Origin: Myxococcales bacterium
GTDB taxonomy: Bacteria; Myxococcota; Myxococcia; Myxococcales; JAJYLH01
Direction of reading: 5' to 3'
Assembly: GCA_021787845.1 (NCBI GenBank)
Contig: JAJYLH010000054.1
Location: forward strand, 1 to 37,480
Length of the DNA: 37,480 nucleotides
Shown piece after piece: positions 1,749-6,672 of the stretch. The number at the start of each line of letters is the position of its first letter. The first letter of the stretch is position 1. Below the pieces are notes generated by a model. The model was not told the origin of the DNA, searched no databases, and was given only the letters and a program-made list of their open reading frames with translations. The translations under genes were made by a program, and so were the position numbers.

Positions 1749-3539
1749 CTATCCCGGAGCGCCGGCGCTCGGCGGCGCTTCCGCGGTCCGCCGCAAGAGG
1801 CGCGGCGCGACGATCAGCGCGCCGCCGAAGAGGGCGAGGGTGACGAACAGCGTCGCCGGCCGGCCGCGAGGGAGGTCCTCGAAGAGGATCTTCGCGCCGG
1901 TGAGCACCAGCGTCGTGTAGGTCGCCCAGACCAGCTCCCTTCGGGCCCGGCCCGGTCCGAGCGCGGCGCAGGCGAGCGCGGTCAGCACGAGCACCGCCGT
2001 GCGCAGCGCCGCGAGCGCGCCCCAGTCGGTGGCGCCGCCCGAGATCGCGGTCACGTGCGGCGCGACGAGGCGAACGAGCAGCGCGCCCAGGCCCCAGGCG
2101 CCGACCACGACCATGAGGTAGGCGGGAACGGTCCAGCTCAGCGCCGCAACGCCGGCAGCGTCGGACCCGGCCCGCCAGCGCAGCACCAGGTAGCAACCGA
2201 GCACCAGGCCGAGAACGATCATCGCGGGGGCGGTGACGCTCTCGGTCTGCGTGCCGGCGAGGGAGCCGAAGGTGAAGGGAGCGACGCCGGACCCGAACGC
2301 CGCGAGCAACAGGAGGAAGGCAGCGTCCGCACGCAGCGCCCGGCGCGTCTTGCGGCTCGCGAAGAACGCGGTGGCGAGGGCGAGCGCGGCCCAGGCGACG
2401 GAACAAGTGCCCGCCGCGGTCAAGAGGCGCGAGCCCTCGACCGAGAGCAGAATCCCGAGCGACCAGAAGTAGGCGGTCTCGAAGGCGGCGCCTTCGGCCG
2501 GGTCGCGCCGGGCGAGGACGTGAGCGAAGGCGGCGAGGCCGAGGACGAGCGCCGCCGCGGCCAGCGCGTGGCTAGCGGCACCGGTCTCGCCGAGCGTGTG
2601 GACGGCGCCGTCGAGCCCGACGACCAGCGCGGCGAGCCCCTGAATCACCGAGAACGCTCCGGCCGGGCGGTGCCAGACCGCCAGGCGCCAGGTGAACGCG
2701 CCGAGGAAGAAGGCGAAGACGACCAGTTGGCCGACGGCGACGGGGACCGCCGGCAGCCAGGGATGGTGCGGGGTGCCGACGAGCAAGCCGCAGACGAGGA
2801 GCGCGCCGTCGGCCAGGAGCGCTGTCGTCCAGCGTAGCTCCGGCCATCCGCGCGCATCGGAGACGAGGAACGCCGCCGCCGTGGTCAGGACGAGGACGGT
2901 TCCGGCGGGCGCCGCGCGGTGCGTCAGCCACACGAGCGAGATGGCGGTCACCATCGAGGCGAGCGAGGCGAGGAGCGCGAGCGCCCTGAGGCCATGGCGC
3001 CAGGCGATGGCGAGGAGCAGGGCGGTCAGCCCGGCGAGGACCAAGGCGCCCGAGCTCGGGCCCAGCGCCCCGAACCGGTCGGAGCCCTCCCACAGAATCG
3101 GGAAGCCGACGACGCCGGCCGTCGCCGCGTGGAAGGAGGCGTCGAGCCGCCAGCGCCGAAGCCCGACGCGATGGGCGGGCCAGAGCCAGAGAGCGGCGTA
3201 GGCGAGGCCGAGGGCGACCCCGAGCGGGCGGGAGAAGGTTCCCGCCTCGGTCAGGGCGCGCAGGAGAAAGGCGCCCGCGAGGACCAGCAGGGCCCGGCCG
3301 CAGAGCGTCGCGAGCCCGGGACCGGTGCCGGCATGCGGGAGCGGTGCCGCATTCTCGCTCCCCTCCGGCGCCTCCCCGGCGGTCTGGGTGGGAGGCGGCG
3401 GTGCCGGGAGGCTTGGGGCCTGCGGGATGTCGGGACCGGTCTTGCCCTTCTCGACGGCGTGGAGGCGGCGCATCGCGTCGTCGAGCGTTCGCGCGAGGTC
3501 CTCGAGTCGTTCCTCGAGGCGGTCCAAGCGGTCGGGCAT
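1749..3539 (-). CDS. DUF2339-like polytopic membrane protein
   Basis: This 596-residue protein starts with a charged, probably coiled-coil segment (residues 1-35: DRLDRLEERLEDLARTLDDA), followed by a proline-rich linker (about 40-75). Then comes a long series of about 14-16 hydrophobic segments to near the C-terminus. This layout matches DUF2339-type membrane proteins of unknown function. The ATG at 3539 is preceded by GGGGGAG about five bases upstream. No catalytic motif is visible. The gene is downstream of, and on the same strand as, the NrfD operon, with a 123-base gap, so read-through is possible but a functional link is not shown. Confidence 0.7.
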   Translation of the reverse strand: MPDRLDRLEERLEDLARTLDDAMRRLHAVEKGKTGPDIPQAPSLPAPPPPTQTAGEAPEGSENAAPLPHAGTGPGLATLCGRALLVLAGAFLLRALTEAGTFSRPLGVALGLAYAALWLWPAHRVGLRRWRLDASFHAATAGVVGFPILWEGSDRFGALGPSSGALVLAGLTALLLAIAWRHGLRALALLASLASMVTAISLVWLTHRAAPAGTVLVLTTAAAFLVSDARGWPELRWTTALLADGALLVCGLLVGTPHHPWLPAVPVAVGQLVVFAFFLGAFTWRLAVWHRPAGAFSVIQGLAALVVGLDGAVHTLGETGAASHALAAAALVLGLAAFAHVLARRDPAEGAAFETAYFWSLGILLSVEGSRLLTAAGTCSVAWAALALATAFFASRKTRRALRADAAFLLLLAAFGSGVAPFTFGSLAGTQTESVTAPAMIVLGLVLGCYLVLRWRAGSDAAGVAALSWTVPAYLMVVVGAWGLGALLVRLVAPHVTAISGGATDWGALAALRTAVLVLTALACAALGPGRARRELVWATYTTLVLTGAKILFEDLPRGRPATLFVTLALFGGALIVAPRLLRRTAEAPPSAGAPG

Positions 3540-3662: not shown

Positions 3663-4895
3663 TCAGGTCCCGAACGGCGCTGGCACGGCCGGCGTCTTCC
3701 CCGCCGCCCGCCGCGCCCACCAGGCGCCGAGCGGGGTGTCCGCCGGGAAGAGCGAGATGACGCCGTCGACGAATCGCAACAGGATGAAAGGCACGATGAA
3801 CACCACCGCGGCGACCACCAGCCCTTCCTTGTTCCAGAGTCCCGGGACGTAGGTCGTGTAGCCGCGGAAGCTCTTCGAAAGGAGCTGCCCGCCGATGACC
3901 ACGTTCCACCGCATCGAGATCACCTGGACGAGCAGGAGCACCGCCGACGAGAAGACGAGGACGTTCGACAGCTTCTCGCGCGGCTTGGCGATGGCGTTGA
4001 AAGCGAGGAACAAGAAGGGCACGAGCGAGCACAAGAGGAGCTGGACGACGACGTAGGTGAAGAAGAGCTTGTGCAGGATGAGGAACTGGAGCGGCTCCCA
4101 TTCCCGGGTCTGCTGGTAGGCGATGGAGAGCACTTCCAACAGCTCAAGGGTGACGTCGACGATCATGAAGCCCCAGAGGAAGCTCGCGAGGGTGCCGACG
4201 CAGGCCCGGTCGATGGGCACCTTGCGCAGCCAGGAGACGAAGTAGAAGAGGAAGACCAGCACCGCGATGCCGCTGACGATCGCCGACAAGAGGAAGATGA
4301 CGAACATGAGCGGGGTCGACCACCAGGGGTTCGCCTTGATCGAGCCGAAGAGGAAGCCCACGTAGCCGTGGAGGAAGCAGGCCACCGGGATGCCGAGGGC
4401 GGCCAGGAACTTCGCGACCTTGTGATCGAACGCCTTGGTCTTCTCGTCGATGGTCGTGTCGAAGAGGGTCAGCGTCCGGTAGAAGAGGCGGGCGAAACCG
4501 GTCCTGCTCTCCGCGAGGTGGACCATGTCCTCGCGCAGGGTCAGCCACACCTCGATGACGACGATGACGAGGTAGGTGAGGTAGATGATGCCGAACCCGG
4601 CCATCGCCGAGGTCTTGCTGGGCGTGATGAGGATGTTGAACGCCCGCTCCGGACGGCCCAGGTGCAAGAGGAGCGGCAGCGGGGCGAAGAGGAGGAACGC
4701 CAGCGACGACACCAGGGCGAAGCGGGCGATGGGCCGCAGGCTCTCCCGCCCGAAGATGTGATAGAGCGACGAAACGATGAACGCGCCCGCCACCAGACCG
4801 GTGATATACGGATAGAGCACGATCATCACGGTCCAGGTGACGTGGAGCTCGTTGGGAAAGACGTAGCCGATGACGGACGGGACCACGGGCAGCAT
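3663..4895 (-). CDS. NrfD/PsrC-type quinone-interacting membrane subunit
   Basis: The protein has 410 residues and about ten membrane spans, typical of NrfD/PsrC/DmsC-like subunits that exchange electrons with the quinone pool. The N-terminal part has an LHLGRPERAF motif, the classic helix-loop signature near the quinone site, and a later span carries RWNVVIGGQ, as in other NrfD-like proteins. I chose the ATG at 4895, not the upstream one at 4931. It has a strong GAGGAGGT ribosome site six bases upstream and overlaps the stop of the ferredoxin gene as TGATG, so the two are translationally coupled. It is the last gene of a three-gene operon with a nine-haem cytochrome and a ferredoxin, and probably anchors both to the inner membrane. 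Confidence 0.88.
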   Translation of the reverse strand: MLPVVPSVIGYVFPNELHVTWTVMIVLYPYITGLVAGAFIVSSLYHIFGRESLRPIARFALVSSLAFLLFAPLPLLLHLGRPERAFNILITPSKTSAMAGFGIIYLTYLVIVVIEVWLTLREDMVHLAESRTGFARLFYRTLTLFDTTIDEKTKAFDHKVAKFLAALGIPVACFLHGYVGFLFGSIKANPWWSTPLMFVIFLLSAIVSGIAVLVFLFYFVSWLRKVPIDRACVGTLASFLWGFMIVDVTLELLEVLSIAYQQTREWEPLQFLILHKLFFTYVVVQLLLCSLVPFLFLAFNAIAKPREKLSNVLVFSSAVLLLVQVISMRWNVVIGGQLLSKSFRGYTTYVPGLWNKEGLVVAAVVFIVPFILLRFVDGVISLFPADTPLGAWWARRAAGKTPAVPAPFGT

Positions 4896-5719
4896 CAGAC
4901 GACCTCCTCGTCGAGCCCGATGTAGAAGCACTTGGGATGGGTACCGAGGTCGGGCTTGAGCACCCCGTAGCGGCTGGTGTTCAGGAGCCGGCGCACTTCG
5001 CTGTTCGGATCTTTCAAGTCACCGTAGTGGCGCGCGCCGTGCGGGCAGGCTTCGACGCAGGCGGTCTTTAGTCCCTTGCTGATGCGGTGGTAGCACATCG
5101 TGCACTTGTCGGCGGTCCCGGTGACCGGGTTCAGGTAGCGGCAGCCGTAGGGGCAGGCCTGGACGCAGTAGCCGCAGCCGATGCAGTGGGTCTTGTCGAT
5201 GAGGACGAGCCCGTCCGGCGACTGGTAGGAGGCGCCCACCGGGCAGACCTGGACGCAGGGGCTCTGCTCGCAGTGGTTGCAGAGCTTGGGGACGAAGAAG
5301 CTCTTCGTCACCTCTTCCGGCTTGACGTCGGCGCGCGGCTCGAACCCCTCGAGGGCGCCGTCGGGGGAATCGACCAGGACCCGGCCGTCCTTCAAGAACG
5401 TGTAGCGCTCGACCCAGGTCCGGAAGAAGCCGTCGGGAACCGAGTTCTCTTCCTTGCAGGCCCGGACGCAGGCGCCGCAGCCGATGCACTTGCGCAGGTC
5501 GACGACGAACCCCCACCAGTGCTCGTCGGGGTGGTAGCTCCCACCGATGGTGGGATAGCTCTCGGCGAGCAGGTCGTCGATCTTCCCGAGGGTGACGAGC
5601 CCCGCGAGACCGGCCGCGCTATACTTCAAGAGGTCGCGCCGGGCGAGCGACCCGCCGGGCTTCTTCTCGCTAGGCTCGGGAAGCGAGAGCGTTCCGCCCT
5701 TCTTCTCCTCCTCGCTCAT
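4895..5719 (-). CDS. Tat-exported ferredoxin subunit with four [4Fe-4S] clusters (PsrB/NrfC-like)
   Basis: The protein has 274 residues. A twin-arginine signal is visible (ARRDLLK, R27-R28, then a hydrophobic stretch 33-45), so the folded protein should reach the periplasm. Four cysteine groups fit four cubane clusters: C78/81/84/88, C147/150/155/159, C179/182/185/189 and C206/209/221/225. This is the electron-wire subunit pattern of the DMSO reductase/polysulfide reductase families. It would pass electrons between the NrfD membrane protein and the multihaem cytochrome. The ATG at 5719 overlaps the cytochrome stop as ATGA, and its stop overlaps the NrfD start, which shows tight coupling. A much longer in-frame upstream extension exists but runs antiparallel to nothing protein-like and overlaps the cytochrome gene, so I rejected it. 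Confidence 0.9.
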   Translation of the reverse strand: MSEEEKKGGTLSLPEPSEKKPGGSLARRDLLKYSAAGLAGLVTLGKIDDLLAESYPTIGGSYHPDEHWWGFVVDLRKCIGCGACVRACKEENSVPDGFFRTWVERYTFLKDGRVLVDSPDGALEGFEPRADVKPEEVTKSFFVPKLCNHCEQSPCVQVCPVGASYQSPDGLVLIDKTHCIGCGYCVQACPYGCRYLNPVTGTADKCTMCYHRISKGLKTACVEACPHGARHYGDLKDPNSEVRRLLNTSRYGVLKPDLGTHPKCFYIGLDEEVV

Positions 5720-6672
5720 GGCTTGGCTCCGCTGCCGCCCTTCGCTCCCGCGGCCTCTGCTGGCGTTTCGACGATGGATAGTCCCTGGGTCTGATGGATG
5801 GCGTCTTGCAGGTGGCAATCGACGCAGCGCTTGGTCATGTCCTCCGGAGGGGCCCCCAGGTCGTTCAGGTGTCCCTGCAACGAGACGATCAGTGGAATCT
5901 TCGCGTCGGTCTTGAACGGATGGCTCTCGTGGCACATCAGGCAGAACTTCGGGTTCCCGGTCTTGAGAATCACCCCCGAGAACTGGGACTCCCGACGGAA
6001 CGGATGGCACGAGGTGCAGTCGAGGCTCGCGTGCGCCTTCTGGGCGAAGTCCGCGACGATGGCCGCATGGCAGTCCTTGCACTGGAAGGTGACGACGTGC
6101 CCCGGCGGCATCGGCCTCGTGCGGATGGACTTGTCGAAATGGCAGTCGGTGCACGGGTGGATCAATGGATGCTTGCGGGCCTCCGCCACCGGATGGTCGA
6201 GGAAGAGCGGATTGTGCGGGTTGTGGCACTCCTGGCAGCGGGTCTTCGGGTCCTTGACCCCGACCTCGGCGAAATGTTGCTTGACGTCGATGGTCGGGAA
6301 CAGCTTCGGCCGGGCGAGGAGCTGTCCGTGGCAGGCGAGGCAATTCGCCTGCTTGAGGTGCCGGAACATCGCGACTTTCGCCCCGGACCCGCGCTCGCTC
6401 GCGACATGCTTGGCGCCCGACCCGTGGCAGTCCTCGCACTGGACGGTGACGTGGGGCCCGAGCTCGTGCGCCGCGAACTCCGCCCGATGGCACTGCGCGC
6501 AGACCTTCTTTCCCTGGAGCGTCGGGGTGCGGGCGGCTTCCTCGGCCAGCGCGCCCGCCCGCCAGTGGCCGAACTCGCCGAACCCCTTGGGCACCGCCAG
6601 GGTCCGGACCGTCAGGCCGATTGCGAAGAGGATGACCAGCAGGACGAACAGCCGTCGAGCGTAGGTCGGCAT
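5716..6672 (-). CDS. nine-haem periplasmic cytochrome c
   Basis: The protein has 318 residues with one N-terminal hydrophobic helix (about 8-22), serving as membrane anchor or uncleaved signal. Nine CxxCH haem sites follow, with cysteines starting at 58, 79, 111, 146, 174, 198, 219, 244 and 283. The C-terminus is an Ala/Gly-rich tail without haem. Extra histidines (for example H74, H89, H105, H160, H168) can serve as distal ligands. I chose the ATG at 6672 because the hydrophobic helix begins right after it. The ATG at 6762 would add 30 residues ahead of the export signal. It is first in an operon with the ferredoxin and NrfD subunits. No molybdopterin or other catalytic subunit is encoded beside it, so it may act as quinol:cytochrome c oxidoreductase, like the Cbc-type complexes of Geobacter, or feed a distant reductase. 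Confidence 0.88.
   Translation of the reverse strand: MPTYARRLFVLLVILFAIGLTVRTLAVPKGFGEFGHWRAGALAEEAARTPTLQGKKVCAQCHRAEFAAHELGPHVTVQCEDCHGSGAKHVASERGSGAKVAMFRHLKQANCLACHGQLLARPKLFPTIDVKQHFAEVGVKDPKTRCQECHNPHNPLFLDHPVAEARKHPLIHPCTDCHFDKSIRTRPMPPGHVVTFQCKDCHAAIVADFAQKAHASLDCTSCHPFRRESQFSGVILKTGNPKFCLMCHESHPFKTDAKIPLIVSLQGHLNDLGAPPEDMTKRCVDCHLQDAIHQTQGLSIVETPAEAAGAKGGSGAKP

Follow-up and report, generated by a model that had tools for sequence, protein, structure and literature searches.

A cytochrome-ferredoxin-NrfD gene trio lacking a molybdopterin subunit, a candidate menaquinol:cytochrome c oxidoreductase in a Myxococcales bacterium

We analysed a 37,480-nucleotide stretch of DNA from a Myxococcales bacterium (bases 1-37480 of contig C22, here called the window; the host genome is 6.24 Mb and 98% complete), in which three genes on the minus strand encode a multihaem cytochrome of 318 residues (5716-6672), a four-cluster ferredoxin of 274 residues (4895-5719) and an NrfD-type membrane protein of 410 residues (3663-4895). 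The cytochrome and ferredoxin genes overlap by the four bases ATGA at 5716-5719, and the ferredoxin and nrfD genes by TGATG at 4893-4897; both overlaps, claimed in an initial annotation of this DNA, were read directly off the sequence. That annotation had also described nine CxxCH sites, 16 cluster cysteines with a twin-arginine (Tat) signal and an NrfD-type quinone subunit, and each of these was found: the cytochrome carries CxxCH at residues 58, 79, 111, 146, 174, 198, 219, 244 and 283, the ferredoxin has four cysteine groups and the signal ARRDLLK, and the third protein matches PF03916 with 119 bits (cut-off 25.8). The trio is not a chance arrangement, because 42 other loci hold the same three genes, and the nine haem motifs stand in register in eleven nine-haem proteins.

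A scan of public genomes with NrfD returned eleven loci at 56-75% identity, in records titled Deltaproteobacteria, Myxococcales, Phycisphaerales, Planctomycetota or Ignavibacteria, or carrying no lineage. The gene order of the trio is kept in all of them except L030 (2889-9149), where the cytochrome and ferredoxin genes are separated by one for a cytochrome b-type protein with four CxxCH; the multihaem cytochrome of this locus lacks its first CxxCH, perhaps through a frameshift. Whole-genome searches at an E-value of 1e-20 covered 195 genomes of the host's phylum, of which 27 held a relative (a few of these are weaker matches that may not belong to the family), and 14 genomes of one small phylum, of which 3 did; at 1e-60, relatives occurred in nine genomes each of two other phyla, out of 395 and 392. 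Flanking DNA was read for 42 of the relatives (window excluded, NrfD identity at least 43%), and all 42 have the cytochrome, ferredoxin and NrfD genes together, contiguous in 41 loci; gene calls in the relatives came from a simple script that is weak in loci of low guanine-plus-cytosine content. The trio is a real family that crosses phyla.

The operon had been described as lacking a catalytic subunit, which was borne out in the window and beyond it. A probe search that detected its positive control (L083) found no molybdopterin subunit in the window or in the 42 trio loci, 18 of which were covered for only about 1.5 kb on each side; no member of the trio family was thus seen beside a catalytic gene, and the large flanking genes in several relatives' loci were ordinary housekeeping or unrelated genes. 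Since the molybdopterin gene is absent beside both the window trio and those of its relatives, we do not place the trio among the complex iron-sulfur molybdoenzymes. A molybdopterin partner supplied in trans was rejected, because the only two PF00384 matches in a genome-wide search of the host belong elsewhere, one (contig C40) to an alternative complex III locus with two NrfD-type genes and the other (C12) to a complex I-like gene cluster. NrfD relatives on haloarchaeal plasmids, at about 32-33% identity, were inspected at two loci, and both carry a molybdopterin gene.

When NrfD proteins were placed in a maximum-likelihood tree, the 27 sampled trio members, the Ignavibacteria loci L032 and L039 included, formed a single clade (bootstrap 97). 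Outside it lay E. coli NrfD, HybB, the ActC, ActF and DsrP proteins of the host and the haloarchaeal NrfDs. The tree was built without PsrC, QrcD, NhcC and CbcU sequences; of the reference subunits proposed in the initial annotation it covered ActC and ActF. Sister to the trio clade is a paralogue from genome G011, whose next gene encodes a 1011-residue protein with molybdopterin domains. The sister complexes carry a molybdopterin subunit, and the trio clade therefore has the cytochrome in that subunit's place. Within the clade an eight-haem member is basal, and a group of nine- and fifteen-haem members (bootstrap 96) stands apart from a four-haem group (bootstrap 98), in agreement with the guess that the nine-haem cytochrome forms a subtype of its own.

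The NrfD model, with a predicted local distance difference test (pLDDT) score of 76, found its best structural match in ActC of alternative complex III (Z 30.6, root-mean-square deviation (rmsd) 3.3, 357 residues aligned) and also matched PsrC (Z 17.1, rmsd 3.2, 238 residues aligned), though a profile search against Protein Data Bank (PDB) sequences gave no match. His79 and Ser97 align with His74 and Ser92 of E. coli NrfD and with Asp109 and Ser129 of HybB, and Arg330 aligns with HybB Arg329 (numbers follow the P0003 translation, which has one extra codon, and are one higher than in the protein itself). The PF03916 match, the helical model and the aligned His79/Ser97 pair place the protein in the NrfD/PsrC family. 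Quinone-site residues of this family are an acid or histidine in transmembrane helix 2 and a serine in transmembrane helix 3 (PMC8076601), and in QrcABCD both QrcC Tyr113 and QrcD Ser138 are required (PMC13059093). By alignment, the trio NrfD keeps the predicted quinone-site and channel residues of the family.

The ferredoxin has 16 invariant cluster cysteines and a 17th conserved cysteine, Cys264. Tyr184 lies between two cluster cysteines (CGYC), at a position matching the essential Tyr113 of QrcC (PMC13059093). The best models were TtrB, DsrO and NrfC, all of which scored below their NCBIfam cut-offs (DsrO, 195.2 versus 200); the protein is therefore a member of the NrfC/DsrO/PsrB family of four-cluster ferredoxins, as its four cysteine groups and Tat signal indicate, and not one of the named members. 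The ferredoxins at L071:9973-10731 and L072:10395-11135 bear Tat lipoprotein-like signals (RREF/RREL...VACG, IHCG), unlike that of the window.

The cytochrome consists of an N-terminal transmembrane helix, a juxtamembrane P..(F/Y)G..G..R motif, a four-haem core and five further haems, at about 35 residues per haem. The helix probably serves as a membrane anchor, because it carries no conserved signal-peptidase motif. Among the eleven nine-haem members, the nine CxxCH histidines are in register and ten other histidines are invariant; when two fifteen-haem members were added, His74, 89, 133, 153, 168, 192, 214, 268 and 293 remained invariant and His69 varied. These nine are candidate distal ligands, one per haem, which fits bis-histidine ligation throughout. 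With one such candidate for each haem site, a bis-histidine wire fits better than a catalytic site. Ten Myxococcota loci encode four-haem proteins that have the transmembrane helix, the P..(F/Y)G..G..R motif and the first four haem sites with their distal histidines in common with the longer forms, and trio cytochromes as a whole have 4, 8, 9 or 15 haems, with some relatives' counts shortened by locus ends. By alignment, then, the cytochrome is modular, a predicted anchored four-haem core that recurs in 4-, 8-, 9- and 15-haem forms. It is conceivable, if rather doubtful, that lineages extended this core by adding haem segments (8, 9, 15), so that the longer forms might reach outer-membrane conduits without a soluble carrier. 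L081 (6176-11859) holds a tandem of two cytochrome-ferredoxin-NrfD sets; the leading set has an eight-haem cytochrome and is basal to the trio clade, and the one behind it has a four-haem cytochrome.

Pfam recognised only generic multihaem domains in the cytochrome (Cytochrome_C7, 38.7 bits; MtrC/F domain, 37.4 bits), and with 33.8 bits against a threshold of 192.2 it does not belong to the DmsE decahaem family (TIGR03508). End-to-end alignment with a known enzyme, which the initial annotation had named as an outcome that would speak against it, was not seen: a single-sequence search of the PDB gave no significant match, and the family profile matched octahaem nitrite reductases over about 78 positions only and E. 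coli NrfB weakly. This partial match and the nine invariant distal histidine candidates set the protein apart from octahaem reductases of the ONR/MccA type. The sole match in a search for the tight-spacing haem pattern was a DsrJ-like gene.

Several known systems resemble the trio in layout. Alternative complex III likewise combines a multihaem cytochrome, a four-cluster ferredoxin and an NrfD-type subunit, but the trio has no ActB molybdopterin-like domain, and no ActB, ActD, ActE or ActF was found among the window neighbours; moreover, ActC lies outside the trio clade, and the ACIII-type (alternative complex III-type) loci of the host are elsewhere in the genome. E. coli NrfBCD and MccACD share the module of cytochrome, NrfC-type and NrfD-type proteins, with quinone-site positions as in E. 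coli NrfD, whereas the trio locus has no catalytic cytochrome of the NrfA/MccA type. NhcA of Desulfovibrio is a cytochrome c3-type protein. The window cytochrome matched class III c3 weakly (22.2 bits versus a Pfam cut-off of 22.9) and shares a four-haem core with short homologues. NhcABCD has nine haems, a four-cluster ferredoxin and an NrfD-type subunit as the trio does (PMC8076601), but also a fourth subunit, NhcD. In described layout, as distinct from sequence, Geobacter Cbc4 (CbcSTU) is alike, with the order cytochrome, 4Fe-4S protein and NrfD-like protein and no molybdopterin subunit (PMC11434368); Cbc4 has been proposed to act in extracellular electron transfer as a menaquinol oxidoreductase (PMC11434368, PMC10989804), and G. 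metallireducens CbcS-2 has four haems (PMC10989804) where the window cytochrome has nine. NrfCD or ferredoxin/NrfD modules devoid of a molybdopterin subunit have also been proposed, from annotation, as donors to multihaem cytochromes in Melioribacter roseus (PMC3534657) and MBNT15 (PMC9386147). This kind of trio is therefore already known from annotation; in the parts of the latter two papers available to us, no family definition, core motif or haem-number series is given, and two Ignavibacteria trio members (L032, L039) have 15 haems each. What the present analysis adds is a defined clade, a four-haem core common to its cytochromes with an extension series, an inventory of distal histidines, the sister relation to a molybdopterin-bearing complex and the DUF2339-like neighbour described below.

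The surroundings of the trio in its relatives point to outer-membrane electron transfer. At L080, genes for an 11-haem protein, an 11-haem lipoprotein, a porin-like protein and a 13-haem protein come after the trio on the same strand; L071 has 12-haem and porin-like genes together with two large cytochromes bearing transmembrane helices; and a NapC/NirT- or ImcH-like multihaem gene lies near the trio in L033, L034, L035, L036, L038 and L071. 'Porin-like' here denotes gene position and mutual similarity, since Pfam and NCBIfam gave no match. Homologues of these conduit genes are encoded on contig C83 of the host (12-haem, 46% and 32% identity; porin-like, 31% and 28%; lipoprotein cytochrome, 35%; ImcH-like, 39-49%; CbcL-like, 31-39%). 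They form a cluster (L128, 4356-15466) of CbcL-like, ImcH-like, 12-haem, porin-like, 11-haem lipoprotein and 10-haem lipoprotein genes, which, judged by gene content, is likely to be an outer-membrane electron conduit, and further candidate porin-plus-cytochrome sets occur on contigs C95 and C153. MtrC/F-type haem domains were present in 17 of 17 trio genomes checked, in a family broad enough to score in E. coli as well. Three ACIII-type loci are present in the host as well, and two adjoin cytochrome oxidase genes; aerobic complex III activity is therefore already covered, and a role of the trio as complex III for oxygen respiration was rejected.

We propose, with a probability of roughly 0.7, that the three proteins form a menaquinol:cytochrome c oxidoreductase of the inner membrane, which would need no further subunit and would supply electrons for extracellular electron transfer. 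The initial annotation had suggested a minimal quinol:cytochrome c oxidoreductase or electron-export gate, and our results support this, function and direction of flow remaining inferred. NrfD would oxidise menaquinol near the periplasmic face, and might take part in proton movement; electrons would then pass one by one through the four ferredoxin clusters to the membrane-proximal four-haem core of the cytochrome, which would fill the place of the molybdopterin subunit of the sister group, and out into the periplasm over the five additional haems, from where they could reach outer-membrane porin-cytochrome conduits such as those whose homologues are encoded elsewhere in the host genome. For electrons that leave the quinone pool towards acceptors outside the cell, CymA, CbcL and ImcH are the main known routes. 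The trio clade adds a further cross-phylum candidate with a searchable signature (anchor, FG..G..R motif, four-haem core); its four-haem version is present in Myxococcota with complete genomes, and the haem-number series makes it testable whether wire length matters.

Several points weigh against this proposal. The trio clade is known from sequence alone, and the direction of electron flow is not readable from it. The extracellular route would follow from co-location in relatives, which is guilt by association and not proof, and in the host itself the trio (C22) and the conduit genes (C83) lie on separate contigs. Because ImcH-like and CbcL-like candidates exist in the host too, the trio may be redundant or serve another acceptor. 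Finally, the model of the cytochrome was poor (pLDDT 50.7, predicted TM-score 0.30) and was not used.

Reverse flow, in which periplasmic or extracellular electrons, for example from Fe(II), would enter the nine-haem cytochrome and reduce quinone, has a precedent in QrcABCD, which contains the NrfD-type QrcD and works as a cytochrome c3:menaquinone reductase (PMC13059093). Conserved residues are silent on direction, and CbcL-type complexes occur in iron reducers and iron oxidisers alike (PMC6295460); however, an ImcH-like gene adjoins the host conduit, ImcH is reported from iron reducers only (PMC6295460), and the other named trios without a molybdopterin subunit have been proposed as quinol oxidases, so that we consider reverse flow unlikely. 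Donation within the periplasm to a soluble partner (oxidase, peroxidase or reductase) instead of extracellular acceptors appears about equally improbable: it would suit the lack of a conduit gene beside the host trio and the finding that Shewanella SirCD can replace CymA for fumarate, dimethyl sulfoxide and ferric citrate (PMC11434368), but relatives' trios are co-located with porin-cytochrome and ImcH-/CbcL-like genes, and ACIII operons next to the cytochrome oxidase genes already supply those oxidases. That the cytochrome is itself an MccA- or NrfA-like terminal reductase acting on a soluble substrate, for which ferredoxin and NrfD would serve as quinol dehydrogenase, was considered and dropped as very improbable, since, despite the same layout in MccACD (eight-haem reductase, ferredoxin and NrfD; PMC8076601) and the partial octahaem match, that match is short, the PDB matches were insignificant, no haem is obviously open, and the compact protein varies in haem number around a constant core.

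Downstream of nrfD by 123 bases, and on the same strand, is a gene for a DUF2339-like many-helix membrane protein (1749-3539, minus strand), which the initial annotation had not mentioned. A homologue with a strong profile match lies near nrfD in L029, L035, L038, L074, L076, L077, L078, L079 and L084 (in L074 beyond the cytochrome gene), and weak matches were seen in L037 and L071; this conserved neighbour is possibly a fourth operon member. The other window neighbours of the trio are ceramidase-like, tautomerase and TetR genes.

Further NrfD-type sets were noted in addition to the trio. L122 (G000 C146, 6126-10081), in the same genome, is a second set without a molybdopterin subunit, comprising a four-haem cytochrome, a ferredoxin, NrfD and another four-haem cytochrome. 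The NrfD of this set lies outside the trio clade and shares 44% identity with the second of the two L081 NrfDs. At L125 (G000 C153, 5153-10105), an NrfD-type protein has six CxxCH in the same open frame and is accompanied by a ferredoxin, a five-helix membrane protein and a 19-cysteine protein, resembling an Hme/Tmc-like set. L126 (G000 C153, 5034-10255), in a genome of the order Myxococcales, has a DsrMKJOP-like gene order with a three-haem protein.

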